From contig CANOFW010000003.1 of NCBI GenBank assembly GCA_947565425.1, forward strand, positions 1 to 64,000: a DNA stretch of 64,000 bases, read 5' to 3'. Below the pieces are notes generated by a model that saw nothing but the letters and a program-made list of their open reading frames with translations, did no database searches and was not told the origin of the DNA. Shown piece by piece: positions 4,132 through 37,509 of the stretch (positions are counted from its first letter, which is position 1; each line of letters begins with the position of its first letter). The DNA is from an uncultured Lachnospiraceae bacterium. GTDB lineage: Bacteria; Bacillota; Clostridia; Lachnospirales; Lachnospiraceae. The translations under genes and the position numbers were made by a program.

Positions 4132-4164
4132 AGGAAGATATGGATTACCAAAGGAGGCATACTT

Positions 4165-12862: not shown

Positions 12863-14023
12863 TTATCCTGTATAAACCGTCCCTTGTGTGTGGTCGATCG
12901 CCTGTTTTAAGACGGCGGCTGCGGAACTTTCTTTTGTGCATAGCAGATGGAAAAAAGGAACGGTGAAGCGTAGTCTTTCTGCAAAAGAAAGATTCGTGAG
13001 TAGCATATCTTTGGTCCAGGATGGAGAAATAAGCCGCTGCATGGTGCGCAGAGCAATTTCTTCATCTGTCATTGGTACAAGGGCGTCTGTGGGCGCCTGT
13101 TTTAAAAAGGTGACACCGCCAAGCGGTACGGTTGAGGTCGTATAAAGCCCGGAGGTGCCGCACCATGGCAAGCCATATACCACGGGTTTGTCATTGATAA
13201 AGCCCAGCAGGTTTAAATCGCCGTTTACATACGGCGTCTGATATTGTTGCTTCCAGAGAGCGGCGTGGGTGGATTTGCCGCAACCGGAAGCGCCGGAAAA
13301 CAGCCATGCTTTTCCCTCATATAAAATGGAAGCGGAGTGGAGCGCGAATGCGCCCAATTGCTGTGCACAGATTAAATATGCAAAGCGAATGGCATGAAAT
13401 ATCTTTTCTGATAAATCACATACATACGGCTTAGAGCAGAATAGGGCGGCATATCTGCCGTTGAGGGAGACATGCATTTCTGTAATTCCATATCCGGCGG
13501 GATATAGGAACAAGTAACAACTGTCTGTTTTACAAATACTGAGTTCGTCTGTGCGAAGCAACAACTCGCCATTGTCCTGTCTTTCTGCGGCGTAAGGGAT
13601 GATGCTGACAGTCAAATCTGCACAAGTGTTTTCGCAGGAAAAGTCAAAGAAAGACGACATGAGCAGATCTCTGGGACCGCAATAGGCGACGGTGACAGGG
13701 CCAATTTGAAAGAAGAAATCCGCATCGTCTGCTGGAAGGTTGCCGGGGCGGGAGAGAATACCTGCGCTTTCTAATTGAAGAAGGAAATGATGGATGTCTT
13801 CTTTGAGCGTGGGTACGTCCGATGCATTTGCGTGATAGTGCGAAATTAATGCTTGTAAGAGCATTTCTTCATCGGCGCCCTGTGTCAGCGTGCGATATAA
13901 CAGCAAGCCGGAATCATTAAGCCGGACGCTGTGTTTAAAATCAACAACATTTTGCCCATAGGGGAGAATATAGGGGATACCTGCGATTTCATGGAGCAGA
14001 TATCCTTTGTTTATTTTCAACAT
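12863..14023 (-). CDS. PqqD-HPr kinase-like fusion protein
   Basis: A 386-residue cytosolic protein. Residues 1 to about 91 look like a PqqD/RiPP recognition element (NDSGLLLYRTL then QLESAGIL). Residues about 215-340 resemble the HPr-kinase-like ATPases found in RiPP gene clusters: LHSASILYEGKAWLFSG, Walker A GASGCGKST (about 244-252), YVNGDLNLL and VYGLPWCGTSG. In Firmicutes lasso-peptide clusters such kinases phosphorylate the precursor; here the substrate is unknown. The start at 14023 follows AAGGAAAGG on the minus strand. It is transcribed divergently from the S26 peptidase and shares a palindromic promoter with it. A general HprK (carbon regulation) role is unlikely given the missing HPrK N-domain. 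Confidence 0.75.
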   Translation of the reverse strand: MLKINKGYLLHEIAGIPYILPYGQNVVDFKHSVRLNDSGLLLYRTLTQGADEEMLLQALISHYHANASDVPTLKEDIHHFLLQLESAGILSRPGNLPADDADFFFQIGPVTVAYCGPRDLLMSSFFDFSCENTCADLTVSIIPYAAERQDNGELLLRTDELSICKTDSCYLFLYPAGYGITEMHVSLNGRYAALFCSKPYVCDLSEKIFHAIRFAYLICAQQLGAFALHSASILYEGKAWLFSGASGCGKSTHAALWKQQYQTPYVNGDLNLLGFINDKPVVYGLPWCGTSGLYTTSTVPLGGVTFLKQAPTDALVPMTDEEIALRTMQRLISPSWTKDMLLTNLSFAERLRFTVPFFHLLCTKESSAAAVLKQAIDHTQGTVYTG

Positions 14024-14055
14024 AAGAATTCCTTTCCTTGCCTGTAAATGTAATG

Positions 14056-14092
14056 TCATTATAGCATTTCCCTCAAAAAAGTGCTATAATGA
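14056..14092. promoter_or_regulatory. Palindromic divergent promoter/operator
   Basis: TCATTATAGCA (14056-14066) and TGCTATAATGA (14082-14092) are perfect 11-bp inverted arms around a 15-bp centre. Each arm contains a -10 box: TATAAT at 14085-14090 on the plus strand and at 14063-14058 on the minus strand. The two promoters are mirror images and overlap each other's -35 region, so the kinase-like gene and the peptidase-pel operon should be jointly controlled. Confidence 0.6.
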
Positions 14093-14131
14093 TACTATAT
14101 AAGAGTAAAATTATTATCATAGGATAAAAAG

Positions 14132-14581
14132 ATGGATTCGAGAGCAGATATAGAGCAGTTGCTAAGAGATGGGAACATGGTTCAGACGGTCATTCACGGC
14201 TACAGTATGTACCCAATGCTCGTGCCGGATAGGGATAGCGCGATTGTTGCACCGTTTGGGGACAGGCAGCCCAAACGCGGGGATGTCGTTCTTTACCGCA
14301 GGGATGGCAGCATTTTGGTGCTTCACCGAATTTGGCGCGTGCGCCAGGAAGGGATTTACCTGGTGGGTGATAATCAGACGCAAATTGAAGGGCCTTTGCG
14401 ACCAGATCAGATGCGCGGCGTACTGATAAGTTTTATCCGTAAAGGGAAGCATATTTCTGTCGGTAATATACCTTATCGGTTATATGCAGTGGTCTGGCTG
14501 TGGATGCGTCCCATTCGCCATATTATGGCGGTGATGGTTCATTTTATAAAGGTCTGCGTCAAGCGGATGTTAGGCAGATAA
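14132..14581 (+). CDS. S26-type signal peptidase-like protease (SipW class)
   Basis: A 149-residue serine protease-like protein. GYSMYPML contains the nucleophile Ser25. GDVVLYRRDG and VLHRIWRV give His65 in place of the bacterial Lys, as in SipW/eukaryotic-type signal peptidases. GDNQTQIEGP supplies the Asp. The hydrophobic segment is at the C-terminus (about residues 115-140), not the N-terminus. It is the first gene after the palindromic promoter and reads into PqqD and the pel genes. A role in trimming an exported precursor is an inference from the neighbours. It lacks a strong Shine-Dalgarno sequence (AGGATAAAAAG). Confidence 0.75.
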   Translation: MDSRADIEQLLRDGNMVQTVIHGYSMYPMLVPDRDSAIVAPFGDRQPKRGDVVLYRRDGSILVLHRIWRVRQEGIYLVGDNQTQIEGPLRPDQMRGVLISFIRKGKHISVGNIPYRLYAVVWLWMRPIRHIMAVMVHFIKVCVKRMLGR

Positions 14582-14602
14582 ATAGTTTGCGAGGTCGGGT
14601 TT

Positions 14603-14869
14603 GTGGATGGCAGGTACAGAATCAGGAAAGCGGCAGGAAGTTACTGGCTGTTGGATATGGAGCAGACAGGCAGGCATTATATAGAGCCAATAGAACTTAA
14701 CGAGAGCGGAGCAAGAATATGGGAGCTTTTTTGCCGGGGACTTGATGTGGCGGCGATTGCCAAAGATTTGGCGGAGCAGTACGGAATAGACAGGGAAGCA
14801 GTGAAAGAGGATGTATTGCAGTTTCTTGCGCGGCTTGAAGCTGCGGGAGTATCAATAGGAGTTAAGTGA
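14603..14869 (+). CDS. PqqD family protein (RiPP recognition element-like)
   Basis: An 88-residue stand-alone PqqD-like protein with a GTG start. It has the three-strand winged-helix pattern: YWLLDMEQTGRHYIEPIELN, then ESGARIWELFCRG, then VKEDVLQFLARLEAAG. PqqD domains bind leader peptides and present them to modifying enzymes. It lies between the S26 peptidase (21 bp) and the pel genes (7 bp), so it is translated in the same mRNA as pelD. No radical SAM or cyclase gene is nearby; the partner may be the kinase-like protein or the short exported protein at 37054-37509. Confidence 0.75.
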   Translation: MDGRYRIRKAAGSYWLLDMEQTGRHYIEPIELNESGARIWELFCRGLDVAAIAKDLAEQYGIDREAVKEDVLQFLARLEAAGVSIGVK

Positions 14870-14876
14870 GGCAGAC

Positions 14877-17075
14877 ATGGAAGTATTATTGGTCGGCAGT
14901 GACAATGAATTGATGCGAACGATGATTAATAAGTTGAATAAGGAAGGGCACCGTTGCTATGTGCTGACTGGAAATAAGAATCAGGTCGGCAGTTATAAGA
15001 ATGCCTACGAAAAATACCGCTTTCCTTATGACAGTGATTGTCTAAAGGAAATCTTTGACAGCGTGCGCCCGGATGTCACGATTTTTCTGGGAATCTACGA
15101 CTATAATTTTGACTGGAGCGATCCCCGAAAGGAGGCCGTACGCTATCAGACGGCATTGCAGAATGTCCTGACTTCCTTTTCTATGCTCAAGAGCGGGCGT
15201 TTTATCTATCTCTCTTCACAGGAGGTTTACTCGCAGTCTTATGCGAATGATATTGATGAGAGGGAAGAGACGTCTGCGTATAGTTTTCGCAGCGTTGCCA
15301 TTGTACAGGGAGAGGATGTCTGCCGTAATTATAAACAGATGATAGGCACAGATACGGTTATCTTGCGTCTGGACCATCTTTATTTGATGCCGGAAAAAGA
15401 GATGGGCGGCAATCGTCTGGTGATAGAGACTAATCCATGTGCCAAGATGTGCGTGGAGGCGCTTCAGACGGGCTATATCCAGGCAAACGCCAATAAAGTG
15501 TTTTCGTTATTATATGTAAATGATGCCGTGGAAGCCATTTATAAGGCGGCGGTAGCGCCAAGCCCCAAGCGAGGGCTATACCATGTCTCTTCCGGCGAAG
15601 TAATTAACGAGATGGAACTGGCGCAGAAGATTCAAACAGAGCTGGGGCAGGAAGTCTCCATCATAGATAATACTGTCGGAAGCATGGTGCGCGTGGTTTT
15701 GGATTGCGGCGCGTTTGCTGATGAGTTTGGAATGAGCATTTTCCACCATGTGGATGATGTTGTTGTCAAGATGACGAAATATATTAAGAAATACAGCGCC
15801 AGCTTTATCAATCTGGAAGATGTCAGGGGGCATAGAAAGCGGGACTGGCGGCAGACATTGCGCGTAATCTTTTATGCTTTGATTCCCTTCATTGAAAATC
15901 TCATTTGTTTTATTCCATTTTTTATGTTAAATAACAGAGCGGTCGGAAGCCGCTATTTTGCAAATCTGGATTTTTATTTGTTGTATGTACTGCTATTTGC
16001 GATTGTGTATGGGCAGCAGCAGGCAACCTTCTCTGCGGTACTTGCAGTTGGGGGATATTGTTTCCGTCAGATGTACAACCGCTCTGGGTTGGAAGTGCTG
16101 CTGGATTATAATACATATGTCTGGATCGCACAGCTTTTCATTCTCGGTCTTGCGGTCGGCTATATGAAGGATCGCTTACGCACAATCCGCAATGAAAATA
16201 AACACGAAGTACAGTATATGGTAAATCAGTTGGATGACATTCAGGATATCAATACCAGTAATGTGCGCATAAAGAATATGTTGGAAGTACAGCTTGTCAA
16301 TCAGAATGACAGTTTTGGCAAGATTTATGAGATTACTTCCAGTCTGGATCAGTATGAACCGTCGGAAGTACTATTTTATGCGGCGGAAATCCTTGCCAAG
16401 CTGGTGGACAGTAAGGATGTGGCAATCTATACAATTGCCAACCGTTCTTACGCGCGTCTCTTTTCAGCAACATCCCCGAAAGCGAGGGAGTTGGGGAACT
16501 CCATTGAGTATACGAAGATGGAGGATATGTATCGTTTGATTAAGGAGAAGCGGGTCTATATTAACCGCAGCATGGATCCCAATTATCCTTTGATGGCAGA
16601 CGCCATTTTTGCAGAGGATGAGATGCAGTTGATTCTGATGGTTTGGGGAATCCCCTGGGAACGTATGACGCTCAGTCAGGCAAACATGCTGGTAATTATC
16701 GGTTACCTTATTCAAAATGCCGTATTGCGTGCGAACCGCTATCTGGATGCCTTGGAGCAGCAGCGTTATCTGCAAGGGACCAAGGTGCTTGATGCGGATG
16801 CATTTGAATCTCTGGTAAAAGCGTATTTAACTGCAAGGAACAAGGGTCTCACGGAGTGTACGATTTTGGAGATTGATATAGAAGGGAAGAATTTGGAAGA
16901 ATACGGAAATGAGCTTGCGGGCCTTATGCGTCAAAGCGATTATATTGGCAAAATGTCGGATGGACGATTATGCGCGTTGTTGTCGAATACGGACAGTAAA
17001 GATGCAGAGTTCGTTATCAGGCGTTTCGAGAAAACTGGTTATAGAAGCGAGATTCGGGAGGATGTGGGGATATGA
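14877..17075 (+). CDS. pelD: SDR-PelD fusion, predicted c-di-GMP receptor of the Pel system
   Basis: A 732-residue protein. Residues 1 to about 295 form an extended-SDR epimerase-like domain, but the Rossmann glycine motif is weak (VLLVGSDNEL) and the usual YxxxK pair is not evident, so it may be inactive. About 329-435 is a block of four transmembrane segments, and about 445-475 a coiled coil. About 480-640 is a GAF-like domain and 650-732 a degenerate GGDEF domain. RQSD at 685-688 lies exactly five residues before SDGRL, which replaces GGDEF. That is the position of the RxxD inhibitory site that binds c-di-GMP in PelD. It is therefore probably a c-di-GMP-responsive switch, not a cyclase. 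SDR-fused PelD proteins are known from Gram-positive pel clusters. It overlaps pelE by 4 bp. Confidence 0.85.
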   Translation: MEVLLVGSDNELMRTMINKLNKEGHRCYVLTGNKNQVGSYKNAYEKYRFPYDSDCLKEIFDSVRPDVTIFLGIYDYNFDWSDPRKEAVRYQTALQNVLTSFSMLKSGRFIYLSSQEVYSQSYANDIDEREETSAYSFRSVAIVQGEDVCRNYKQMIGTDTVILRLDHLYLMPEKEMGGNRLVIETNPCAKMCVEALQTGYIQANANKVFSLLYVNDAVEAIYKAAVAPSPKRGLYHVSSGEVINEMELAQKIQTELGQEVSIIDNTVGSMVRVVLDCGAFADEFGMSIFHHVDDVVVKMTKYIKKYSASFINLEDVRGHRKRDWRQTLRVIFYALIPFIENLICFIPFFMLNNRAVGSRYFANLDFYLLYVLLFAIVYGQQQATFSAVLAVGGYCFRQMYNRSGLEVLLDYNTYVWIAQLFILGLAVGYMKDRLRTIRNENKHEVQYMVNQLDDIQDINTSNVRIKNMLEVQLVNQNDSFGKIYEITSSLDQYEPSEVLFYAAEILAKLVDSKDVAIYTIANRSYARLFSATSPKARELGNSIEYTKMEDMYRLIKEKRVYINRSMDPNYPLMADAIFAEDEMQLILMVWGIPWERMTLSQANMLVIIGYLIQNAVLRANRYLDALEQQRYLQGTKVLDADAFESLVKAYLTARNKGLTECTILEIDIEGKNLEEYGNELAGLMRQSDYIGKMSDGRLCALLSNTDSKDAEFVIRRFEKTGYRSEIREDVGI

Positions 17076-18130
17076 CAGTGAAGGAAATTTTCTTCTGCTG
17101 CATCCTTTTAGGCAATGCGCTTGTGTCCGTGTTGTATTTGGTGTTCGGGCTGATGCATGTCAAGCGGTGTGAAATCAAAGAGGCGGCAGAGCGCAAACAG
17201 ACAGAAGCCGGGCAGGAAGAAACAGAGGGCAAAAAAGAGGGAGAAGACCTACAGGAAGAAATAGTAGAAAAAGAAAACGAAGAAAATGTAGAAGAAAACG
17301 AGCTTCCGATGAGAGATGGCAAGCTGGTGTATGTTATGAAGTTTGTCATTATGCTTCTTTGTCCGGTAGCAGGTCTGATTTTCTTTGGTGTAGGACATTT
17401 TCTGTTTCGTTTTATCTTTCGCCAGGATGTTCACCTGGAAGACGTTGTTTTTAGCAAAGAGCGTGTACGCACCAATGAGCGTGCGGACGAAGAGCGCGAG
17501 AGAAATATCGCTCCTTTGGAGGAGGCGATTGCTGTCAGCGACAAAGAAAGCCTGCGTGGATTAATGTTAAATGTTATCCGCGGCGATGTCCATAATTCAC
17601 TGGCGGCGATTTCACTCGCATTGAACAGTCCGGATTCAGAGACTGCGCATTATGCGGCGTCGGTTTTACAGGACGAGTTAAATAATTACCGCGGCAATGT
17701 ACAGAAAATTTGGCGTGAGATCGAGAAAGAAGAGGAAGATCAGACGGATTGTGAGTATTACTTGATTCCTTATATGAATAATATGCTGGAGCAGAAGGTA
17801 TTTACCGAGATGGAGCAGCGGAATATGGTACAGAAGTTTGCCGAAGTGGGTGAAGTGCTGTATCGTAAAGCGCCTCACAGATTCACCAGTCAGTATTACG
17901 AATGGCTTTGCCTGCGTCTGCTGGATATCAAAGATTTTGAAGCCATGGAAAAGTGGTGCAGCCGTGCATCGCAGCAATATCCAGAGGAACTTTCCAGTTA
18001 TACATGTAAGTTGAAATTGTATTTTACCGCGCAGGAGAAAGAGAAATTTTTTGAGACGCTGGATGCCCTCAAACAGTCCAGCATCGTGATTGATAAGGAG
18101 ACTTTAGCGTTAATTCGTACGTTTGGGTAG
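17072..18130 (+). CDS. pelE: PelE-like membrane TPR protein
   Basis: A 352-residue protein starting at the ATGA overlap with pelD. It has an N-terminal transmembrane helix (about 5-26), a charged Glu/Lys stretch (about 32-75), a second helix (about 87-110) and then a helical, TPR-like cytosolic part (about 140-352). PelE in Pseudomonas combines two membrane helices with TPRs and works with PelD and PelG in the inner-membrane complex that exports Pel. Size, topology and gene position all match, although sequence conservation in PelE is generally low. Confidence 0.7.
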   Translation: MTVKEIFFCCILLGNALVSVLYLVFGLMHVKRCEIKEAAERKQTEAGQEETEGKKEGEDLQEEIVEKENEENVEENELPMRDGKLVYVMKFVIMLLCPVAGLIFFGVGHFLFRFIFRQDVHLEDVVFSKERVRTNERADEERERNIAPLEEAIAVSDKESLRGLMLNVIRGDVHNSLAAISLALNSPDSETAHYAASVLQDELNNYRGNVQKIWREIEKEEEDQTDCEYYLIPYMNNMLEQKVFTEMEQRNMVQKFAEVGEVLYRKAPHRFTSQYYEWLCLRLLDIKDFEAMEKWCSRASQQYPEELSSYTCKLKLYFTAQEKEKFFETLDALKQSSIVIDKETLALIRTFG

Positions 18131-18142
18131 GAGGTGATAGCA

Positions 18143-20713
18143 GTGTCGATGGAGGTTTTAACAATCTTACAGACAGTGGGCATTCTTGCGGCATACCTTG
18201 TGATGACGTTTTTCCTCCCGGGGATACTGCTGTATCGCAAAATACAAAAGCTGCGGTTCTGTGAGCGATTCATCACTTATCAGATGGTCGGAAATTTCTA
18301 TATGATGAATCTGGTCTCTGTCCTGGAGCTGCTTCATATCTCGAATCGTGTGACCTTGATTCTTTTTACGATTCTTCCCTGTGCGGCAATTTATGTAGTC
18401 CTTTACCGCAAAGCGCCCTTAGAGGCAATGCATGAGGGACTTGATTATTTGGAACGTCTCGCCGGTGGGCAGTTTGGTGTACGTCTGTTTTTGCGGCGTG
18501 TTCGTGTGGCAATTTGGCAGCTTTTAAAGAAGGCATTGTGCAAATTGTTCCATCTAATCCGTGAGAATATCGTTGACATTCTGCTGGTTGCGGCGTTGAC
18601 AGCAGGGTTGTGTTATGTATATGGCACAAATCTTTTAGCGTATTTTGGCTATTGTGAGTCGGATTTGCCGGTGCATAATTATTGGATCAATTATCTTGGC
18701 AAGAATGATATGTTTGTCGCAGGTATTTATCCTTTCGGCTTCCATTGTGTTGTCTATTACTTGCATGAGGTATTTGCAATACCGACCTATGTTTTACTGA
18801 GGGTGTTCTGTTTTACGCAAAACCTAATGATTCATTATGTCTTGCTTGCGTTTATCAAATACTGTTGTAAATCTAAATATGCTCCCTATGTGGGTGTGTT
18901 CCTGTATGTGTTTCTCAAGGTCCTTGGGGAAAATACCTATATCCGGTATTTCAGTACGCTGCCGCAGGAGTTTGGCATGATTTTTATTCTGCCTTCTATC
19001 TATTATCTGTTTGCCTTTTTTGTGAGGAAGGAAAAAAAGGTAAAGGAGAACGCGCAGGGCGAGGTGGAAACGGTTGAGGGTGTACCAGTGGCGGTCGTTC
19101 ATGTGAATGATGAGGAGTTGCCGCCTTTAAATGAAGAAAGTATCATAAGAATTGAAGAACATGGAATTGTTAGAACAGAGTTAAACCGGGAGGAAGAAAC
19201 GGACAGCCAGGAAGAGGCGGAAGAAAAGCAGGAAAAGAAACGTTTTGGAACTCTTCGCTTTGCTAAAGCGGGCAGCGGGAAGAAAGAAAAGGGGACGCAG
19301 CGAGAGAAAAAAGCAAGGAAGCCATTAACTGTCGATTTTTGGTATCTTGCTGGTTTTGCCATCAGTTTTGGCATGACGCTCTCCGCTCATTTTTACGATA
19401 CGATGATTGCCGGGCTTTTGTGTATCGGCGTAGCCTGTGGGTATTTTTTCCGTCTGTTCCGTCCACGATATTTGTGGAGGGTTATGCTGACAGGCATTTT
19501 ATCAATATTGATTGCGATATTGCCCATGTTGATTGCCTTTGCGATGGGGACGCCGCTGCAAGGTTCTCTTGGTTGGGGCATGAAGGTTATTTCGGGAGAA
19601 AATAATAAAGAAGTAATACAGAGCACACCCGCGCAAGATGCGGATAGTAATGTTGGGGAAGATACTGGCGCTGTGCAGAATGGAGAGCAGACCGGTGCGA
19701 TATCGGATGAAGGCGATTTGGCACAAGGGCAGGGAACAGTGACGGTAGCAAGGAAATCTCTGCCGGAAAGAGTAGTATCTAAGCTTAAATCAGCGTTTGC
19801 TGCTTTCTGGGAGGCAATGAGGATCTATATTATTTTGGATAGTTATCCGTATTTCCAGATGATGCTAGTAGGGGCAATTGCTCTGCTGGCGGTGTTATCT
19901 CTGGTATTTTTCCTTGTACGGCAGACAGATTACGCAGCGAGATGTCTCTCGTTGTCTGCGGGGATGGTTATGCTGTCCATATTGCAGGCGTCTTCTCGTC
20001 TGGGTTTGCCGACGCTTATGGATGCGATCAGGACTTGTATCTTTTATGCCTATGTCTTGGCGGCGGCATGGAGTTTGTGTGTAGACAGTGTGTTACAATT
20101 ATTGTTTGGTTGGTTTAAGAAGAAATGGATGTTGCATTTAGCTTCTCTGGCGGCTTTGGCGGCTGTGGTGGTATGCAGCAGCCAGGCGGGGTTGTTACGT
20201 GAGCCTCCGGTGCGACAGTCATTGCAGACGAATGACGCGATTCTTTGTCTGACCAATATTTTACATGATAATAAAGACTTTACCTGGACAATCTGTTCTG
20301 CTAACGATGAACTTCGTATGGGGGAGGATTATGGGTATCACCATGAGGTGCACACGTTTTTGAAAGACGTGGAGCGGAAAGGACGGACGCATTCTGTGAC
20401 AATTCCTACCTCAAAGGTTTATTTTTTCATAGAAAAGATACCGATTATGTATGGAAGGGCTTATCGTGGCGATGAACCGAAGATTGCGTCCATCTATGCA
20501 GAGGAGCCGTTACCACGAGGCGCGGGGATTTCCATGTACCAGGGAGTGAATCGTTTGATTGAGATGTCAAAGCTGTATGAGTGGGCGCAGGAGTTTGCAA
20601 AGTATTATCCCAATGATGTGAAAATTTACTATGAGTCAGACAATTTTGTTTGTTATTGTGTAGAGCAGGATTTATACCGTCCATTTAATTTTGCCATTGA
20701 CGTAAATAAATAA
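18143..20713 (+). CDS. Large polytopic membrane protein of the pel operon
   Basis: About 856 residues. GTG at 18143 is chosen because AGGAGGTGATA sits just upstream; ATG 18149 is an alternative. The N-terminal half has about ten membrane segments. It is followed by a very charged cytosolic insert (about residues 295-395, rich in Glu, Lys and Arg), more membrane segments, and a soluble C-terminal domain of about 170 residues. The overall shape recalls DUF6541/YfhO-like glycan polymerases or lipid-linked sugar transferases, but I recognise no catalytic motif. It is absent from the minimal Bacillus pel set and is translationally close to pelE (12 bp) and the next gene (24 bp), so it should act in the same pathway. 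Confidence 0.65.
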   Translation: MSMEVLTILQTVGILAAYLVMTFFLPGILLYRKIQKLRFCERFITYQMVGNFYMMNLVSVLELLHISNRVTLILFTILPCAAIYVVLYRKAPLEAMHEGLDYLERLAGGQFGVRLFLRRVRVAIWQLLKKALCKLFHLIRENIVDILLVAALTAGLCYVYGTNLLAYFGYCESDLPVHNYWINYLGKNDMFVAGIYPFGFHCVVYYLHEVFAIPTYVLLRVFCFTQNLMIHYVLLAFIKYCCKSKYAPYVGVFLYVFLKVLGENTYIRYFSTLPQEFGMIFILPSIYYLFAFFVRKEKKVKENAQGEVETVEGVPVAVVHVNDEELPPLNEESIIRIEEHGIVRTELNREEETDSQEEAEEKQEKKRFGTLRFAKAGSGKKEKGTQREKKARKPLTVDFWYLAGFAISFGMTLSAHFYDTMIAGLLCIGVACGYFFRLFRPRYLWRVMLTGILSILIAILPMLIAFAMGTPLQGSLGWGMKVISGENNKEVIQSTPAQDADSNVGEDTGAVQNGEQTGAISDEGDLAQGQGTVTVARKSLPERVVSKLKSAFAAFWEAMRIYIILDSYPYFQMMLVGAIALLAVLSLVFFLVRQTDYAARCLSLSAGMVMLSILQASSRLGLPTLMDAIRTCIFYAYVLAAAWSLCVDSVLQLLFGWFKKKWMLHLASLAALAAVVVCSSQAGLLREPPVRQSLQTNDAILCLTNILHDNKDFTWTICSANDELRMGEDYGYHHEVHTFLKDVERKGRTHSVTIPTSKVYFFIEKIPIMYGRAYRGDEPKIASIYAEEPLPRGAGISMYQGVNRLIEMSKLYEWAQEFAKYYPNDVKIYYESDNFVCYCVEQDLYRPFNFAIDVNK

Positions 20714-20737
20714 CCATCTAGTGTTGGAGGAGTTCAT

Positions 20738-24405: not shown

Positions 24406-24447
24406 CCGAAAATATAATTTTAAGTCAGGAAAGGCATGGTTGTTGCT

Positions 24448-25923: not shown

Positions 25924-26297
25924 TGGCGGAAATCTTATGTATTATAACTGTGGTAGAGGGGATTGCGCTTTTGGTGGTGGACTTTATTTCTTTTGTTTAT
26001 CAGAAGATTACCATCGGGATAGAATTATGTTGGAGCGCATTTGCCGTTGTGCTGATCTTGCTTGGTGTTGTGCCGGGCTTGTCAAACTGGAGCAGAATCA
26101 TTCCTATCGAGGCAGTGCCGGCATTCCTCCTTATCAGTCTTGCCATTATTTTCAGCTTTTTTTATCTGAGCTGCGCAATTTCGCAGCTTTTGCGTAAAAA
26201 TCAGGAGCTGGCAATGCATGTGTCGCTGCTGAATCAGGAAAATGAAATTATCCTGCAAAAACTAAAGGAGAATTTGGCAAAAGAGGAAAAAGAGTAA
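25923..26297 (+). CDS. Small membrane protein with C-terminal coiled coil
   Basis: About 124 residues: three hydrophobic segments (about 3-22, 29-48, 60-85) and a coiled-coil-like end (LLRKNQELAMHVSLLNQENE). The ATG overlaps the pelG stop, and GAAGGAGG lies inside pelG, so it is translationally coupled. The fold resembles DUF2304-type proteins that often sit beside glycosyltransferases, but the match is weak. It probably serves the glycan pathway. Confidence 0.6.
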   Translation: MAEILCIITVVEGIALLVVDFISFVYQKITIGIELCWSAFAVVLILLGVVPGLSNWSRIIPIEAVPAFLLISLAIIFSFFYLSCAISQLLRKNQELAMHVSLLNQENEIILQKLKENLAKEEKE

Positions 26298-26298
26298 G

Positions 26299-27501: not shown

Positions 27502-27530
27502 AGGCGGCAAAGGAAAAGTAGCGGCGTTTC

Positions 27531-29664: not shown

Positions 29665-29679
29665 TGTAGCACTGCAATA

Positions 29680-31167: not shown

Positions 31168-31254
31168 ATAGAAACCTCGATAATTGTTGTAGCGTTCATT
31201 TAAAACGTATGATAGATGTCAACATTATATCATAATGAAGGAGGAGTTGAGAAT

Positions 31255-32262
31255 ATGCAGGATCATAAAATTGATTTTGTTATCTCGTGGGTTGATGGCG
31301 GCGATCCGGCATGGTTGCAGGAAAAAAGCAAATACCATGCTGTCGGCAGCAGCGATGACGCCAAGGAACGTTATCACGACTGGGACAATTTGAGATATTG
31401 GTTCCGGGGTGTGGAAAAGTTTGCCCCCTGGGTTGACAAAATCCATTTTATCACCTGGGGGCATTTGCCGGCATGGTTGAATGTTAATCATCCCAGGCTG
31501 CATATCGTGCGTCATGAAGATTATATTCCGCGGGAATATCTACCGACGTTCAATTCACATACGATAGAATGGAATATGCACAGGATTGAGGGACTTGCGG
31601 AGCAGTTTGTCTATTTCAATGATGACTTTTTCCTGATAAATACCGTGAAGCCGCAGGATTTCTTTTTACAAGGGAAGCCCTGCGATATGCTGGCGTTCCA
31701 GCCGGTAGTGGCAAATCCGGCAAATCCGGTAATGTCCCATATCTATTTGAATAATTCGCTGGTGATATCCAAATATTTTCATAAACGGGAAAATGTTAAG
31801 ATGCAGCCTGGCAATTATTTTAAATTTGGCTATCCCTGCCTTTATTTTGTTTATAATATATTGGAAATGATGTTCCCACTGTACACGGGTTTTTATACGG
31901 TGCATGGACCGTCTCCGTTTCTCAAAGAAACTTATCGCACGCTCTGGGCGAAGGAAGAGGAGCTTTTGGATGAGACGTGTCGTCATCGGTTCCGCAATGA
32001 AGCGGACGTTAGCCAGTACCTTGCCAGGGAGTGGCAGAAGCTTTCTGGTGAATTTCATGCACAAAATATTACCCGCCATTTTCGTTATTTTGATGTACAG
32101 AGTGATAATCCTGCGCTGATAAAAGCGATTGTCAAGCAGAAAGCGAAGATGATCTGCATCAACGACGCCAATGCGCCGATTGACTTTATGCAGGCGAAAA
32201 AACAGGTGGCAGAAGCTTTTGCATGTATTCTGCCAGAGACGTCAAGTTTTGAGAAAAGATAG
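31255..32262 (+). CDS. Stealth family sugar-phosphate transferase
   Basis: A 335-residue cytosolic enzyme. CR1 is IDFVISWVDGGDPAW at the N-terminus. CR2 includes RYHDWDNLRYWFRGVEKFAP, WVDKIHFITWG and EQFVYFNDDFFL. Later conserved regions contain HGPSPF. Stealth proteins transfer hexose-1-phosphate to sugars, building phosphodiester-linked capsules or modifying glycans; the GlcNAc-1-phosphotransferase of animals belongs here. The start at 31255 follows GAAGGAGGAG. It is the first gene of a Stealth-flippase-nucleotidyltransferase run. Confidence 0.9.
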   Translation: MQDHKIDFVISWVDGGDPAWLQEKSKYHAVGSSDDAKERYHDWDNLRYWFRGVEKFAPWVDKIHFITWGHLPAWLNVNHPRLHIVRHEDYIPREYLPTFNSHTIEWNMHRIEGLAEQFVYFNDDFFLINTVKPQDFFLQGKPCDMLAFQPVVANPANPVMSHIYLNNSLVISKYFHKRENVKMQPGNYFKFGYPCLYFVYNILEMMFPLYTGFYTVHGPSPFLKETYRTLWAKEEELLDETCRHRFRNEADVSQYLAREWQKLSGEFHAQNITRHFRYFDVQSDNPALIKAIVKQKAKMICINDANAPIDFMQAKKQVAEAFACILPETSSFEKR

Positions 32263-32272
32263 GTGCCTTTTT

Positions 32273-33814
32273 ATGGAAACAAAGACCAGAACGGAATATT
32301 CCGCACGCAATACAACGGTGGCGCTTCTGTCACGTCTGACGGCAATTATTATGGGTTATCTGCTGAGAGTTGTGTTTACCCATACGCTCAGTGAGAGTTA
32401 TGTGGGAGTGAACGGGCTCTTTGTCGATATTATTCAGGTGCTTTCGCTGTCTGAAATGGGCGTGGGAACAGCGATTACGTTTGCGCTTTACCGTCCGATT
32501 GCCGAGGGTGATACGGAAAAACAGAAATCATTGATGAAGCTTTTTCGGCAGTTTTACCGGGTGGTAGCAGTCATAGTGGCGGTGGGAGGCGCGCTTTTGA
32601 TTCCTTTTATGGATGTATTTATCAAGGATTATGAGAATGTGGAACATTTGACCTTGATTTATATTCTTTATCTTATAAATACAATCTGTTCTTATCTGTT
32701 GATTTACAAGAAGACGCTGATGGATGCGCATCAGCTTCTCTATATTGGCACATTCTATCAGACGATGTCGTGGGTATTGCAGGATGTGTTGCAAATTTTT
32801 GTACTTATTGTCTATCATGATTTTATACTGTTTTTGCTTATCAATATAGGCACCACGATATTGTGCAATGTATGTATCTCTGTGCGTGCAGATAAACGTT
32901 ATCCATATTTGAGAGATAAAGATGTGGCTCCGCTTTCTGAGCAGGAGAAGAAAGGCATTTTTTCAAATATCCGGGCGATGCTCATGCACAAAGTTGGCGC
33001 CGTCATTGTCAATAACACCGATAATCTGCTGCTGTCCGCATTCGTAGGGCTTGCCAGCGTGGGCGGGTACTCTAACTATTATCTTTTGATTGGTTCTGTG
33101 CGCCAGATGTTGAATCAGGTATACCAGGGCATTACGGCGAGCGTCGGCAATCTGGGCGTGACCGAGGATGAAGGGCATGTACAGCAAGTGTTTGAGGTGG
33201 TATTCTTTATCGGGCAATGGATGTATGGATTTGCTTTTATCTGTCTGTTTGAGCTCTTGAATCCATTTATTGTACTCAGTTTTGGAAAACAATATGTGTT
33301 CCCGGAGGCGACGGTATTCGTGCTTTGCGTGAATTTCTTCCTCAACGGGATGCGCAATGCGACGTTGACGTTTCGTGACTCAATGGGCCTGTTCTGGTAT
33401 GATAGGCATAAAGCGATTGTCGAGGCCGTGTTGAATCTGGGACTGTCTTTGTTGCTGGTAAACTGGCTGGGTATGATGGGCGTGTTTCTGGGAACATTGT
33501 TCAGTATGGCGTTGACTTCGCTGTGGGTCGAACCGTATGTGCTTTACAAACATGGTTTTCACAAATCCTGTGCAGGCTATTTTGTGCGTTATATTTTGTA
33601 TGTAATTGTAATAATGGTTGGCTGGTTTGTCACAGATTGGCTGTGTCGGGAATGGACAGTCATTGGCGTACAGGGGTTGTGGCAAATTTTGCTCGTACGG
33701 CTCGCCTTGTCTACGATAGTGCCCAACATCTTGTTTTTGATTGTATATGGCAGGAGTAGGGAATTTCGTTTCCTGTTGGGCAAGGCGAAAACACTGACAA
33801 AGAGACGTCGTTAG
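32273..33814 (+). CDS. Oligosaccharide flippase, MOP superfamily (Wzx-like)
   Basis: A 513-residue membrane protein with about 12-14 helices, beginning METKTRTEYSARNTTVALLSR. This N-terminus is typical of Firmicutes capsule flippases. It probably moves a lipid-linked glycan, perhaps the one built by the Stealth and glycosyltransferase proteins, and is distinct from PelG. The start at 32273 lies 10 bp after the Stealth stop. The longer in-frame ATG at 32171 lies inside that gene and is unlikely. Confidence 0.88.
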   Translation: METKTRTEYSARNTTVALLSRLTAIIMGYLLRVVFTHTLSESYVGVNGLFVDIIQVLSLSEMGVGTAITFALYRPIAEGDTEKQKSLMKLFRQFYRVVAVIVAVGGALLIPFMDVFIKDYENVEHLTLIYILYLINTICSYLLIYKKTLMDAHQLLYIGTFYQTMSWVLQDVLQIFVLIVYHDFILFLLINIGTTILCNVCISVRADKRYPYLRDKDVAPLSEQEKKGIFSNIRAMLMHKVGAVIVNNTDNLLLSAFVGLASVGGYSNYYLLIGSVRQMLNQVYQGITASVGNLGVTEDEGHVQQVFEVVFFIGQWMYGFAFICLFELLNPFIVLSFGKQYVFPEATVFVLCVNFFLNGMRNATLTFRDSMGLFWYDRHKAIVEAVLNLGLSLLLVNWLGMMGVFLGTLFSMALTSLWVEPYVLYKHGFHKSCAGYFVRYILYVIVIMVGWFVTDWLCREWTVIGVQGLWQILLVRLALSTIVPNILFLIVYGRSREFRFLLGKAKTLTKRRR

Positions 33815-33844
33815 AGCGTTCGTCGAAAGGGAGGGAGATCGGCG

Positions 33845-35083
33845 TTGAAAGAAACGGAGAAATTGCTGCTTGACGCGTTAAGGCAGTCCTTACATCCGCA
33901 GGAAAATCAAGGGTGTCTCTTGCTGCCTGAAAATGAATACACAGAACGCGAATTTCTGAAAATGGCGCGAAATCATGCGGTTTTGCCGCTTTTGTATGAT
34001 GCATATGAGAAGCAGGGACTCGCCAAAGATACGTGTTATGCGAATTTCTGGCAGCAGATACGGCAGGTTGCAGCCACGACTGCGCGTGCCAATTATCGGC
34101 TGTTGTTTGTGGTAAAATATATTACCGAGCTTTTGGAAAAGGAGAGCATCCTTATTATTCTCCTCAAGGGAGCGTCAACAGCCTCCTATTATCCGACGCC
34201 AGAGCTGCGTAAATCCGGGGACGTTGATATTTTGATTCCGCAGGAGCGGGATTTTCAGCGTGCAGTGGAATTGTTAGAAAAAGAAGGGTTCGCAAAATGT
34301 GAATCGCAATCGGCGCTGCATCATATTGAGCTGAAAAACGAAGAGGGTATCAGCGTAGAGCTGCATTGTATGCTGGCGGAGCCGTTTGAGAGTGGGAAGA
34401 TGAACCATTATCTAGAGACATTGCTTGCAGAGTATCGCAAACATGTAGAAAAAAATGATTCCTGGGGCGTCGCATTTAATCAGCCTACAGACGCGTACCA
34501 TGCATTTTATCTGGTTGTCCATATGTTGCAGCACTTTCTGCGGGCAGGCTTTGGACTAAAATTTCTTTGTGATTGGACGGTGTTTTGGAACCGTGAGATA
34601 GCTGCGGAGGAGAAAGAGACTTTTTTGCGTCTGCTTCAAGAGAGTGGGACACAGGGGTTTGTCGCGGCATTGACGGAAGCGTGTGTGAAATATCTTGGGT
34701 TGCGGGAGGAAAACGTATTGTTTTTGTTGGGAGATTCTCATGGAGTTGTAGAGAACTGTCCGGCAGAAGAAGATTGGCAACAGCTTGCGGAAGAGTTCAT
34801 GGAGGAAGTGTTTATCTCCGGTGAATTTGGGCGCGGCGACAAACAGCGCATGGTTGCCATGCGCGGGACAGGGTTTGCCGCCTATGCGCGTGAATTTCAT
34901 CATCAGATGCATCTAAATTATCCAGGCGTTGGCAAGGTGTTTTTCTTGTGGCCCTTTTTGTGGGCTCTGACGCTGGCGCGTTTTATGCAAAATAACCGTT
35001 CTATCAGAAAAGTGAAGAGCATGGATATTTTAAAAGAGGCGCGCCGGCGGAGCAAGCTAATTGACCGGATGAAATTATTTTAG
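33845..35083 (+). CDS. Nucleotidyltransferase family protein (NTP_transf_5)
   Basis: A 412-residue soluble protein with a TTG start after GGGAGGGAG. The signature LILLKGASTASYY-like region is followed by LRKSGDVDILIP, with Asp126 and Asp128 as the predicted metal pair, and a distal VELHCML acidic strand. These match the NTP_transf_5 (PF14907) family, which is commonly found in lasso-peptide and other RiPP clusters next to PqqD and HprK-like genes, as well as in capsule clusters. Its substrate is unknown. It converges on the ABC transporter with a 9-bp gap. Confidence 0.82.
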   Translation: MKETEKLLLDALRQSLHPQENQGCLLLPENEYTEREFLKMARNHAVLPLLYDAYEKQGLAKDTCYANFWQQIRQVAATTARANYRLLFVVKYITELLEKESILIILLKGASTASYYPTPELRKSGDVDILIPQERDFQRAVELLEKEGFAKCESQSALHHIELKNEEGISVELHCMLAEPFESGKMNHYLETLLAEYRKHVEKNDSWGVAFNQPTDAYHAFYLVVHMLQHFLRAGFGLKFLCDWTVFWNREIAAEEKETFLRLLQESGTQGFVAALTEACVKYLGLREENVLFLLGDSHGVVENCPAEEDWQQLAEEFMEEVFISGEFGRGDKQRMVAMRGTGFAAYAREFHHQMHLNYPGVGKVFFLWPFLWALTLARFMQNNRSIRKVKSMDILKEARRRSKLIDRMKLF

Positions 35084-35092
35084 CATTTTTAA

Positions 35093-36922
35093 TCAAAATC
35101 CCTTTACCATCTCTTCAATTTCTTCCTCATTTAAAATCACGCATTTCTTATCGCGGATGGCATAGACGCGCTCGCAGATATTCAGTACGGAAGGGCGATG
35201 CGTTGTCACGATGCAAGTGCGCGGGTAGTCGTCAGCCATAATGTTGCGAAGGACTTTGCGCTCAGTAGCCACGTCCAGGGCGGAAGTCGCTTCGTCCAGC
35301 AGCAGAATCGGGGAATGGCGCAGTAACGCCCGGGCAATGGAAAGCCTCTGTGCCTGTCCCTCAGAAAAGCCGCCGCCGCGTTCTTTAATTTTGCTGTCAA
35401 TACCGTCCGGAAGTTTCCTCACAAAATCCCAGGCACAGGATAATTTTAGGACGTCAATGATTTCTTCTTCTGTGGCGTTTGGCTTGACATTGCGCATATT
35501 TTCGGCAATGGTGCCGGAAAACATGGTATTGCCTTGCGGCACATAGGAGAAGAGCTTTCTGGTGGAGGGCGTCAGAGGAATGGCGTCTGTGCTTTTGCTG
35601 TCTGAGTCTGTGTCATCTGCGCTCTTGCAGTCAGAAAAGGTGAGCGAGTGATGCCCCCGGTTCCCGCCGAGTGTGGCAGCGCCGTTCTGAGAACGCATTA
35701 GCGAGAGAATCAGGCGTATCATCGTTGTCTTACCCTCACCGGAAGGACCAACCAGTGCAACCACTTCGTGCGGATGCGCTTCTAAGGATGCTCCGGCAAA
35801 GACCTGGGTGCCATTGTTGTAAGCGTACTCCAGGTTATCGACATAAAGGCTGATGCCATGTTCCTTATGCGCCTCGAAAAACGCGTCGACTTCTTCGTTC
35901 TGGCTGTAGTCTTCTCTTGGCATCTCAATAATGTCCATCAGGCGTCCGGCGGATGTTGTGAGCCCGATGATGGTCGGCACTAACGACGTCAAATTGTGCA
36001 GCGTGCCAGTCAGCGTGCCAGAGAGGCTTAAAAACATGGTCATGGTGCCGTAGCTGATGGCGTTGGTAAATACACGGTAAATTCCCCAGCCGTAGGAGGC
36101 GTAGGAAACGAGAAGCGCAACGGTAGACAACAGCAGGGACGTGCCCATAGACATTTTCTGAAAATCAAGCTTCATGGCGATGTACTCTTTCTGAAGCTGT
36201 TTTAAGCGCGCCACATACAGATGAATCAAATCAAATGCCTTGATGGTTTGTATGTTAGAGAATGCCTCCTGGTTAAAACCGGACATTTTAGCCCCCATAG
36301 CTGCGCTGCGTTTGTTGTTGTTCACCATGCGGTTTAAAAGCGTCTTGGACAGCAGCAGGCTGACGGGCATTCCCAAGAATGCAAAGATGGCAAACGAGGG
36401 ATCGTAATAAATCACCATCGCAAACGCACTGATAAAGCGAAAAAGATAGATGATGGCATTGGGCAAAAAGTTGAGGACGCCATTGGAAATGGCGGAGGCG
36501 TCCGAGCCCCAGCGCGTCAGCAAATCGCCGGTATGGTAAGTCGTCAGAGATTCCCAGTCTGTTACCAGAATCTTGGAGAAAATATCCGCCTTAATCTCGG
36601 AATCCACTTTCATGCTCAGGTAAGCGGAGGCATAATCGGAAAGCTGGTTTAAGAATGTCGTTCCTACGTTCAGCCCAATCATCAGCGAGAATGTCTTGAC
36701 AATTTCTCCGGTCTGGCGTCCGGTGATGATATCGACCAGGTCTCTGGAAATTAGGCTGGTAAGCAAGGCGACGACAGTTCCCACCATGCCGAGCAGCGTA
36801 TAGAAGATCATTGTCAGCCAGTAATGTTTGGCATACTGATAAATCCAGATCGTTTGGCGGCGCATTTCTCCAAGGCGTCCCGCCTTGACGCGTCCAATGA
36901 GAAAGCGGAGTTTCTGTTTCAT
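35093..36922 (-). CDS. ABC exporter, fused membrane and ATPase domains
   Basis: A 609-residue half-transporter: six-helix membrane domain (about 35-330) and ATPase (about 358-609). Walker A is GPSGEGKTT (392-400), the signature is FSEGQ (519-523, SEGQ in place of SGGQ) and Walker B ILLLDEATSALD (539-550). A 30-residue Ser/Asp/Lys-rich insert (about 424-453) sits between Walker A and the Q-loop. There is no N-terminal C39 peptidase, so any leader must be cut by another protease. The start at 36922 follows AAAGGA. It lies downstream of the short exported protein and is separated from it by a perfect terminator hairpin. Peptide/glycolipid export is likely. Confidence 0.85.
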   Translation of the reverse strand: MKQKLRFLIGRVKAGRLGEMRRQTIWIYQYAKHYWLTMIFYTLLGMVGTVVALLTSLISRDLVDIITGRQTGEIVKTFSLMIGLNVGTTFLNQLSDYASAYLSMKVDSEIKADIFSKILVTDWESLTTYHTGDLLTRWGSDASAISNGVLNFLPNAIIYLFRFISAFAMVIYYDPSFAIFAFLGMPVSLLLSKTLLNRMVNNNKRSAAMGAKMSGFNQEAFSNIQTIKAFDLIHLYVARLKQLQKEYIAMKLDFQKMSMGTSLLLSTVALLVSYASYGWGIYRVFTNAISYGTMTMFLSLSGTLTGTLHNLTSLVPTIIGLTTSAGRLMDIIEMPREDYSQNEEVDAFFEAHKEHGISLYVDNLEYAYNNGTQVFAGASLEAHPHEVVALVGPSGEGKTTMIRLILSLMRSQNGAATLGGNRGHHSLTFSDCKSADDTDSDSKSTDAIPLTPSTRKLFSYVPQGNTMFSGTIAENMRNVKPNATEEEIIDVLKLSCAWDFVRKLPDGIDSKIKERGGGFSEGQAQRLSIARALLRHSPILLLDEATSALDVATERKVLRNIMADDYPRTCIVTTHRPSVLNICERVYAIRDKKCVILNEEEIEEMVKGF

Positions 36923-36950
36923 GAGAAAGTATCCTTTCAAAATTTATCTT

Positions 36951-36983
36951 ATAAAAACAGCACCGCTCGTCAAAGCGGTGCTG
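36951..36983 (-). terminator. Terminator/attenuator between short-protein gene and ABC exporter
   Basis: A perfect 10-bp stem (CAGCACCGCT with AGCGGTGCTG) on a 6-nt loop is followed on the minus strand by TTTTTAT. It lies between the stop at 37054 and the exporter start at 36922, so partial read-through would give much more short-protein mRNA than exporter mRNA. Confidence 0.8.
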
Positions 36984-37053
36984 CCCCACAATACATAACT
37001 AGCAATATAAATATTCCACATGCGGTTCGTGGAACTTATGATGTCAAATTGGT

Positions 37054-37509
37054 TTAATTACCGTCGCCGCCGTTGCCCTGTACATTGACTGTCTTCGTAC
37101 AAGAGATCGTAGCGCCAATGCATGCCAAACCTTTCGTAGTAGCCTCGTCGGCAGCTTTTACCCATACCTTGTATGTTACGTTGTCTCCGGACTGGTAAGC
37201 GTTCGCGTGTGATTCGCGTACAATGGTAACAGTGTTGCCGCTGAAAGTACAAGCGAAATTGGACTCGGCATAAGCGTCTGCCACAGTATTGTTGAACGTA
37301 AGATCGACTGTAGATGCGGTTGAAATATGCTGTACGGTATTGGAATGTACGCAGCTAACTTCAAATACATTGTGTGAACCATTCCAGTCATGTACGGACT
37401 TAGCGCTTACAGTCCAGCAGTTGGCAGCTTCTGCTGCGCCGCTTGCGGCATAAACGCCCTCGCTCAAACCATCGTTCACGATTACCATCGGTTTTTCATA
37501 ACCTCTCAT
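37054..37509 (-). CDS. Short leader-bearing protein, candidate exported precursor
   Basis: A 151-residue protein without a hydrophobic signal peptide. The N-terminus MRGYEKPMVIVNDGLSE then GVYAASGAAEAANC looks like a RiPP/bacteriocin-type leader ending in a small-residue cleavage region. The rest is beta-rich, with Asn, Thr, Ser and four Cys (positions about 31, 53, 86 and 129-136). It ends Gly/Asn-rich. The ribosome binding site GGGAGG is strong. YEKP...EGVYAASG N-termini recur in Lachnospiraceae hypothetical proteins, but no function is known to me. It is probably exported by the ABC protein. Modification by the PqqD/kinase proteins is a hypothesis. Confidence 0.65.
   Translation of the reverse strand: MRGYEKPMVIVNDGLSEGVYAASGAAEAANCWTVSAKSVHDWNGSHNVFEVSCVHSNTVQHISTASTVDLTFNNTVADAYAESNFACTFSGNTVTIVRESHANAYQSGDNVTYKVWVKAADEATTKGLACIGATISCTKTVNVQGNGGDGN

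Follow-up and report, generated by a model that had tools for sequence, protein, structure and literature searches.

The locus and its genes

The stretch of DNA analyzed here, called the window throughout, comprises bases 1-64000 (64,000 nucleotides) of contig CANOFW010000003.1 (contig C3) from the 3.36 Mb genome of an uncultured Lachnospiraceae bacterium (GCA_947565425.1). The original prediction had named six gene families of the kind known from ribosomally synthesized and post-translationally modified peptides (RiPPs), interleaved with Pel and capsule genes, and Pfam and NCBIfam searches of the window proteins bore out all six at their coordinates. These are a fusion of PqqD with an HPr-kinase-like (HPrK) domain (12863-14059, minus strand; 398 amino acids), in which a Pfam PqqD domain, that is, a RiPP recognition element (RRE), is followed by a C-terminal P-loop domain; an S24/S26 peptidase of the Ser-His type (14132-14581, plus strand; matched by Pfam PF00717 and NCBIfam signal-peptidase families), which we propose as the leader peptidase; a free PqqD, again an RRE, as the first gene before pelD (14603-14869, plus strand; Pfam E = 6.8e-16); an NTP_transf_5 nucleotidyltransferase (33845-35083, plus strand; Pfam E = 8.3e-41); an ATP-binding cassette (ABC) exporter with ABC_membrane and ABC_tran domains (35093-36940, minus strand), for which Pfam lists no C39 peptidase domain; and a putative precursor of 151 residues (37054-37509, minus strand), composed of a 24-residue leader (37438-37509) and a 127-residue core. 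With moderate confidence we read these genes as a system in which a leader guides the maturation and export of small, folded proteins for secretion, and which is coupled to an exopolysaccharide island of the Pel type.

The fusion and the S26 gene are divergent, with 72 bases between them. The S26, free PqqD and pelD genes follow one another on one strand with gaps of 21 and 7 bp, from which we conclude, in agreement with the original prediction, that the maturation genes partly share an operon with pel. At the other end of the island the precursor gene precedes the ABC exporter gene on the same strand, with 113 bases between them, and NTP_transf_5 follows a flippase-like gene at a distance of 30 bases.

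Recurrence of the gene set in other genomes

The linkage of these genes was followed in two surveys. In the first, PqqD was sought in 150 Lachnospiraceae genomes, each from a different genus (76 positive at E = 1e-4), and 80 neighborhoods were fetched out of the PqqD matches listed; the annotation profiles were grown on that same set from the proteins of the window and of a second locus of the window's genome, L007. Eleven of the first-survey loci, the window included, contain the fusion, and within the fetched stretch all 11 carry a leader protein and an ABC gene, nine an S26 gene and seven an NTP_transf_5 gene. The leader-protein profile, which was grown on that set, matches in 11/11 fusion loci versus 0/65 other PqqD loci (L007, L050 and L053-L116 minus L090, with five Pel halves of fusion loci omitted). 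Unfused HPrK is present in 37 of these 65 loci, along with S26 in 17, ABC in 27 and NTP_transf_5 in 20; in the 28 without HPrK the corresponding counts are 3, 12 and 2.

In the second survey, GTDB 220, with one genome per bacterial or archaeal species, was scanned with the alignment of 11 fusions (A1), which gave 298 pattern stretches and 209 relatives, and the best 80 of the 209, chosen by similarity to the query, were kept. The two surveys overlap, seven loci apparently being in both. Loci with short flanks were omitted from the distance counts, so that 51/80 were used for counts within 5 kb (at least 5 kb on both sides) and 49/80 for those requiring at least 18 kb. Within 5 kb of the fusion, a leader protein is found in 46 of the 51 loci, an ABC protein of more than 500 amino acids also in 46, S26 in 42, NTP_transf_5 in 24 and free PqqD in 12. 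Of the 60 loci with an S26 gene, 53 have it no more than 1 kb away from the fusion, on the opposite strand in 51 of those 53, and the leader and ABC genes are less than 500 bp apart in 51/58 loci. Two or more open reading frames (ORFs) with the leader motif are carried by 21 of the 58 loci that have any, and the leader protein was not found in 4 of the 49 large loci.

The expectation that a single system should recur as a set in other genomes was thus upheld for the fusion, S26, the ABC exporter and the leader protein, which recur jointly in dozens of Lachnospiraceae loci; of the six families originally proposed, NTP_transf_5 and free PqqD are frequent companions and not constant ones. Named isolates with both fusion and leader protein include Roseburia porci, Fusicatenibacter saccharivorans, Coprococcus catus, Blautia luti and Eubacterium plexicaudatum. 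A sample of 398 genomes from the phylum yielded the full-length fusion in no genome but that of the window, and a sample of 196 genomes from the order yielded the leader in two members of Lachnospiraceae only. Among the best 80 loci are records labelled Thermoclostridium, 'Gastranaerophilales' and, in three cases, 'Clostridiaceae' (labels as recorded).

A common leader in front of dissimilar cores

The leader has the design M-x-x-Y-x-K-P-(9)-E-G-V-Y-A-A-S-G, that is, 24 residues with fixed spacing. Its conservation was counted in the 73 distinct second-survey leaders selected with the pattern E[GSN][VILM][YF]x[AGS]SG; positions -8 to -1 are part of this pattern, E(-8), S(-2) and G(-1) being fixed by choice, and the constancy of G(-7) in 69/73, V(-6) in 68/73 and Y(-5) in 72/73 is therefore partly by construction. 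Outside the selecting pattern, and counted gaplessly from the final Gly, Y(-21) is present in 72/73 and P(-18) in 73/73. The first survey recovered the same leader by profile rather than by pattern, and the window precursor matches this profile with E = 4e-14 as the sole match in its genome at E = 0.001. Many RRE groups, including those of PqqD and lasso peptides, are described as binding a W/Y/LxxP/L/I sequence (PMC12710340), and YxxPxL is reported from the leaders of bsf-type lasso clusters (PMC10368454).

A membrane-length hydrophobic stretch (19-residue hydropathy mean of 1.6) is present in 0/80 leader proteins, so the leader is not a Sec signal peptide, and secretion by a signal peptide of the Sec/SipW kind was ruled out. 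Double-glycine export was likewise ruled out, the window exporter lacking C39 and the leader ending in SG. In some cases, such as G022:C55, G029:C51 and three G146 contigs, the leader protein is encoded on a contig that lacks the kinase, an indication that the leader is able to work in trans. As for the cleavage site, the small-residue rule at -3/-1 is best fitted by a putative cut after ...A-S-G, a cut one to three residues earlier being a plausible alternative.

The cores are 48-146 residues long, with a median of 112. One leader precedes at least three core types without detectable mutual similarity, an arrangement of leader and variable core as in RiPPs. We regard these dissimilar cores behind a single leader as the strongest sign of a common machinery that reads the leader, and they are also the reason for which the substrates are termed proteins here and not peptides. 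Families A (alignment A7) and B (A6), the latter including the window protein, are homologous (hhalign 96.7%, E = 3.7e-10). No match links family C (A8), in which four Cys are invariant, or family D (A5) to A, to B or to one another.

Family D is CBM2-like. Six of its seven members match Pfam CBM_2 at E up to 1 (best 1.1e-6), of which member 1 passes the family cut-off (26.0 bits vs 24 bits); five of seven match CARDB (best 3.1e-4, below cut-off for member 1), and 11 weak PDB matches include 1exg (E = 0.012), 6qfs (0.022) and 3ndy (0.66), which we take to be cellulose-binding domains of glycanases. The other families gave nothing comparable: the window precursor belongs to no Pfam or NCBIfam family; family B shows scattered weak matches in PDB, Pfam and NCBIfam, none of them consistent; family A has scattered matches of one or two members in Pfam and NCBIfam, including CBM_4_9 at 0.027; and family C has none in PDB or Pfam and one weak match in NCBIfam. 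One further match of family A, to the coat protein of MS2 in PDB (E = 0.0007 for one chain, 0.11-0.87 for 13 other coat or capsid chains), was judged to be chance because only about 44 residues align. The core of a leader protein of genome G146 (L209, 1189-1602, minus strand), located on a contig other than that with its PelG, appears ubiquitin-like by eye.

The fusion, the peptidase and the exporter

In the window fusion, PqqD occupies residues 42-102 (Pfam E = 2.9e-6). The C-terminal domain resembles HPr kinase by NCBIfam matches to HprK_rel_A (E = 0.014), HprK_rel_B (0.061) and ScmC (1.2e-4), all far below cut-off. In A1, H241, GK262, N-G-D281 and PWCG are invariant. A strict P-loop is found in 69/80 fusions, in all 69 of which a His is kept 15 residues before it; in the remaining 11 the P-loop varies (ASSGTGKSTH and APSGTGKSTH, for instance), with the Lys always present.

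The window S26 protein matches Pfam S24 at E = 3.9e-6 and archaeal signal peptidase I at 3e-6, and SipW at just 0.022. It carries GYSMYP and LVLHR, which we presume to mark a Ser-His site (SipW/ER-like) and not a Ser-Lys site; in the homologues of the second survey, GxSMxP is kept in 60/60 and LxxH[RK] in 57/60. A membrane-length hydrophobic stretch was measured by hydropathy in 0/60 S26 homologues. The label 'SipW-type' of the original prediction is therefore apt for the catalytic residue and does not hold for the membrane topology. Its further proposal, that the S26 peptidase stands in for the leader protease of lasso clusters, fits the proximity of S26 to the fusion noted above, so that a role in leader removal can be suggested from gene order.

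Coincidence with Pel and other polysaccharide genes

Across the 150 genomes, one per genus, PelG was found in 30, the full-length fusion in 12 (threshold >370 bits, the next scores lying near 205) and the leader profile in 12. PelG is present in 11/12 fusion genomes vs 30/150 overall (Fisher p = 3.9e-8, phylogeny uncorrected) and in 12/12 leader genomes, and the fusion is present in 11/12 leader genomes. The fusion genome without PelG is G096, which holds a divergent leader protein (L051:8481-8969) unlisted by the leader profile, and the leader genome without fusion is G146, which is 68% complete. In 10 of the 11 genomes having both, PelG and the fusion lie on one contig within ~20 kb; in the eleventh (G025) the fusion is 1 kb from the contig end. 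Fusion and leader are thus nearly confined to PelG genomes, and the link to a polysaccharide island claimed at the outset is supported. Conversely, 18/30 PelG genomes have neither fusion nor leader, from which it follows that the small-protein system is an accessory of some Pel loci and not a Pel requirement.

In the second survey, a strict polysaccharide marker (Pel, flippase-like, Stealth, DUF4832 or DUF2304) is found in 36/49 loci of at least 18 kb. Looser counts of 8/51 (Pel, 5 kb), 12/49 (Pel) and 40/49 (polysaccharide) included generic epimerases and glycosyltransferases, and the strict recount is preferred.

The Pel genes of the window form one operon containing PelF, PelG and a PelD of the short-chain dehydrogenase/reductase (SDR) type, the combination by which a Gram-positive Pel cluster is recognized. 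The PelD-like protein (14877-17075, plus strand), assigned by synteny, has an N-terminal SDR/epimerase part (Epimerase E = 2.3e-11) and a C-terminal regulatory part, whose end near RQSDYIGKMSDGRL presumably resembles an inhibitory-site RxxD for cyclic di-GMP before a degenerate GGDEF. It is followed on the same strand by a PelE-like protein (17072-18130), assigned by position, with no meaningful Pfam match; an 859-residue membrane protein (18134-20713) with no Pfam or NCBIfam match; a DUF2194 protein (20738-22609; Pfam E = 3e-28) in what, from its position, would be the slot of the PelA deacetylase; the glycosyltransferase PelF (22672-24405; DUF3492 E = 6.2e-76, Glycos_transf_1 E = 9.7e-25); and the exporter PelG (24436-25923; Pfam E = 1.9e-142). 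In the first survey the PelE family is conserved in 9/82 stretches, each time behind PelD, and the 859-residue protein family stands behind PelE in 8/82; in the second, free PqqD is directly upstream of PelD in 7/9 testable loci.

A clostridial PelD with N-terminal SDR is known, and the Gram-positive pelDEADAFG clusters share with the window the SDR-bearing PelD, PelF, PelG and DUF4832 accessory genes; as far as the excerpts of that article go, their accessory kinase is CotH-like, and PqqD, HPrK, S26 and leader proteins are not mentioned (PMC7112168). The article also describes Roseburia pel loci as part of a larger cluster, unclear in function, that resembles those for capsule or teichoic acid (PMC7112168), and that cluster is probably the same locus type as the window.

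The rest of the island (25920-33814, mixed strands) encodes DUF2304, two glycosyltransferases, two DUF4874/DUF4832 proteins, a Stealth transferase and the flippase-like protein, and several of these genes recur in the same order in other loci. The DUF4874/DUF4832 genes are a convergent pair (28357-29664, plus strand, and 29680-31167, minus strand), and several other loci also have a pair of them. In L166 of Eubacterium plexicaudatum ASF492 (0-6740, minus strand), PelF, DUF2194, the membrane protein and PelE are each split into two ORFs, by sequencing frameshifts or gene decay. Outside the island, an S10-Clostridia ribosomal leader RNA (57356-57440, plus strand) is the sole Rfam match of the window at gathering cut-offs.

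A compact unit apart from pel, and leaders of other PqqD loci

PqqD is found over the cut-off four times in the window's genome, and one of the other loci, L007 (contig C53, 298-5005, minus strand), is a tight operon of HPrK (4011-4745), PqqD, S26, an ABC exporter and NTP_transf_5 (298-1518). Pfam confirms PqqD, ABC and NTP_transf_5; for HPrK and S26, to which Pfam gives no family at E = 0.01, the assignment comes from our own profiles, with which no Pel genes were found on this 14-kb contig. The operon holds all five families in the absence of Pel and therefore identifies them as one compact unit independent of pel. A 34-residue YxxP...TSSG peptide (L007:4901-5005) is encoded directly upstream of the kinase. 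As the sole Asn_synthase match of this genome is on a contig other than C53, the L007 product is possibly a peptide without a lasso ring.

A relaxed leader scan with a ribosome-site filter, run over 65 other PqqD stretches (here L007 plus L053-L116), gave 10 matches among 495 candidate small ORFs, spread over nine loci, where 20 residue shuffles averaged 0.4 matches and never exceeded 2; the pattern was set after viewing the matches in 13 of those loci, and an earlier unfiltered scan was weak (6 vs 3, 0 and 1 in shuffles). Eight of the 10 proteins found are 34-56 residues long, the L007 peptide being one of them. On the same 65 stretches a radical SAM profile matches in 25, vs none of the 96 fusion-survey stretches (16 from the first, 80 from the second), which rules out a radical-SAM RiPP and makes the fusion system a different branch from RiPPs of that class. 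Judged by these leaders, Lachnospiraceae appear to use a larger family of systems with YxxP leaders, in part beside exopolysaccharide genes, of which the window's system would be the protein-sized branch.

Comparison with known systems

The closest known relatives are lasso clusters with a kinase and a nucleotidyltransferase (bsf, paeninodin, pseudomycoidin), which have in common with the window an HPrK-like kinase, a PqqD-type RRE, a nucleotidyltransferase, an ABC transporter and a YxxP leader (PMC10368454 and PMC9266682). The window's system differs from them in having no cyclase and no transglutaminase-like protease, S26 instead, protein-sized cores, a kinase-PqqD fusion, an NGD motif at the kinase site and a location in a Pel island. 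According to PMC10368454, an HPrK-like kinase phosphorylates its YxxPxL-leader precursor faster together with its RRE. In pseudomycoidin, PsmK and PsmN are described as phosphorylating the peptide and then adding a hexose, with the reservation, made in the review, that PsmN is perhaps not itself the glycosyltransferase (PMC9266682). The kinase and NTP_transf_5 steps proposed below are modeled on this analogy with PsmK/PsmN and not on evidence from the window genes themselves.

The absence of the asparagine synthetase-like cyclase and the transglutaminase-like leader protease, stated in the original prediction for the window, was confirmed for the fusion's contig in the 12 fusion genomes. Among 13 genomes searched, PF00733 (Asn_synthase) has no match on the fusion's contig in 12/12 fusion genomes, and PF13471 (Transglut_core3) has one match over cut-off, in G096. 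The latter belongs to a separate lasso-type locus with Asn_synthase, Transglut_core3 and PqqD (contig C2 of G096, 198013-206703), the fusion of the same genome being on contig C13. A Transglut_core3 match below the cut-off (E = 0.006) lies ~26 kb from the fusion in G022. Of the features of lasso clusters, the PqqD-type RRE and the YxxP leader are present; the cores, at 48-146 residues, are not of the short kind that is closed to a macrolactam.

Two other systems are similar in part. In Bacillus subtilis, the S26 peptidase SipW, with His replacing Lys, acts on TasA-type small matrix proteins beside exopolysaccharide genes. The His-type S26, the small proteins and the exopolysaccharide neighbors recur here; unlike SipW-TasA, the window-type substrates have no hydrophobic signal peptide, the S26 protein has no membrane-length stretch, and an ABC gene is beside the substrate. 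Double-glycine leaders are short, end in small residues, have an acidic residue at -8 and adjoin the gene of a C39-ABC exporter. Short leader, small end, acidic -8 and ABC neighbor are common to the window's system, which differs in that the exporter has no C39 and the leader ends in SG and carries YxKP.

No publication joining PqqD with Pel polysaccharide, or with Lachnospiraceae exopolysaccharide, was found in a search that left preprints and most subscription journals outside, and the leader string EGVYAASG was not found in the literature searched, nor, among the records listed, a title or abstract start describing such a system. The text of PMC12710340 contains neither 'kinase' nor 'exopolysaccharide', and that of PMC7470986 neither 'kinase' nor 'polysaccharide'.

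Proposed pathway and alternative explanations

The recurrence of the gene set and its coincidence with PelG support, at the gene level, the idea of one modification and export system tied to polysaccharide. In such a system, the free and kinase-fused PqqD domains would act as recognition elements that hold the leader at YxxP, the HPr-kinase-like domain would phosphorylate the precursor, and NTP_transf_5, where present, may put a sugar or nucleotide on the precursor phosphate. The S26 peptidase would cut off the leader near the invariant ASG, the ABC exporter without its own C39 domain would secrete the product, and the extracellular core would bind, cap or cross-link the Pel-type polymer. RiPP tailoring modules are known for small peptides; here they seemingly serve folded secreted proteins of ~110 residues beside a biofilm polysaccharide in common gut commensals. 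If this is true, it would give a reason for PqqD and HPrK-like genes in capsule islands, a leader motif by which the substrates can be located in any genome, and a way, open to testing, to the matrix proteins of Gram-positive Pel.

Several observations weigh against this reading. At the kinase site, the two-Asp motif of BsfK reads NGD in 80/80 fusions, the first Asp (D186 of BsfK) being Gly by motif order; replacing D186 with alanine made BsfK less soluble, and the authors of that work rate the residue as important for catalysis (PMC10368454), so kinase activity of the fusion is not certain. The same NGD is found in 10/19 unfused HPrK-profile proteins with a strict P-loop and is not unique to the fusion. 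No Ser or Thr common to all core families offers itself as a phospho-site, the shared Ser being the leader's own. The window core has no carbohydrate-binding annotation, and in its family B 2/23 members touch CBM_X2 (best E = 0.021). The YxxP motif extends beyond the fusion system, relaxed YxxP leaders being present in 9/65 other PqqD loci as well. NTP_transf_5 and free PqqD are near the fusion in fewer than half of the 51 loci. The many PelG genomes without fusion and leader count here as well, and by the strict count Pel genes lie no more than 5 kb from the fusion in 6/51 loci and within the fetched stretch in 10/49 loci of at least 18 kb.

The rival that survives best, unlikely in our view and yet to be taken seriously, regards the products as bacteriocin-like or lectin-like effectors matured by the same leader, RRE, peptidase and exporter, with the island as a shared surface-variable locus. 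Diverse cores, the two or more leader-motif ORFs in 21/58 loci, the four invariant Cys in family C and the 13/49 large loci without a strict polysaccharide marker speak for it; PelG in 11/12 fusion genomes, in 10 of them on the same contig within ~20 kb, and the CBM2-like core family speak against it and for matrix proteins coupled to Pel.

A bolder form of the matrix-protein reading, which we put forward tentatively and think rather improbable, is a bacterial proteoglycan-like pathway. The leader would present a small carbohydrate-binding protein to the HPrK-PqqD fusion, NTP_transf_5 would build a phospho-sugar on it, the protein would become an anchor, cap or primer covalently on the Pel-type polymer, and S26 and the ABC exporter would release the product. 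RiPP chemistry would, if that is true, serve matrix assembly rather than antibiotics.

It is also improbable, to a degree that leaves it little weight, that the kinase-PqqD fusion regulates Pel or carbon use as an HPr-kinase-like switch, the leader protein, exporter and S26 being a separate simple secretion module. The weak matches of the fusion domain to HPr kinase and the PelD-type protein in the Pel operon would agree with such a role. Against it, the fusion bears an RRE-type PqqD, it tracks the leader (46/51 in the second survey, 11/11 in the first) better than it tracks Pel within 5 kb (6/51), and 18/30 PelG genomes do without fusion and leader. Chance or hitch-hiking, by which exported-peptide genes without relation to each other accumulate in surface-polysaccharide islands and the six families form no single pathway, is disfavored and very improbable: other kinds of PqqD/HPrK module do occur in Lachnospiraceae capsule loci, but the leader is seen in 11/11 vs 0/65 loci, S26 and fusion are on opposite strands in 51/53 close pairs, and leader, fusion and PelG coincide across one genome per genus. 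A lasso-peptide cluster with a missing or distant cyclase, to which the accessory genes and YxxP leader shared with the bsf cluster would point, has a negligible probability, being refuted for linked loci by the lack of Asn_synthase and Transglut_core3 matches over cut-off on the fusion's contig in 12/12 genomes and opposed by the core median of 112 residues.

Other loci with PqqD modules

Locus L072 (2-18685, plus strand) is a variant of the window's system. Behind DUF2194-PelF-PelG it carries genes for PqqD, S26, an unfused HPrK, ABC and a radical SAM protein (17258-18328), as well as two short proteins that have one WKKP...AASG leader in common from the Trp onward.

PqqD modules are also found in capsule-type loci with Wzz/ParA-like proteins (L054, L059, L063, L066, L074, L077, L087, L088, L092, L094, L101 and L113), the annotation of which was checked by Pfam for one representative per family. 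Several have radical SAM and HPrK, and some have CpsB/CapC, LytR-CpsA-Psr and an Ig-like-domain protein. Finally, PqqD proteins of ~115-180 amino acids occur without the modeled maturation genes, ABC apart, in L003 (contig C2 of the window's genome, near 30284), L093, L098, L100, L103, L105, L110 and L116, and a conserved transporter-like protein (median 643 amino acids) is beside or near such a PqqD in eight first-survey loci.

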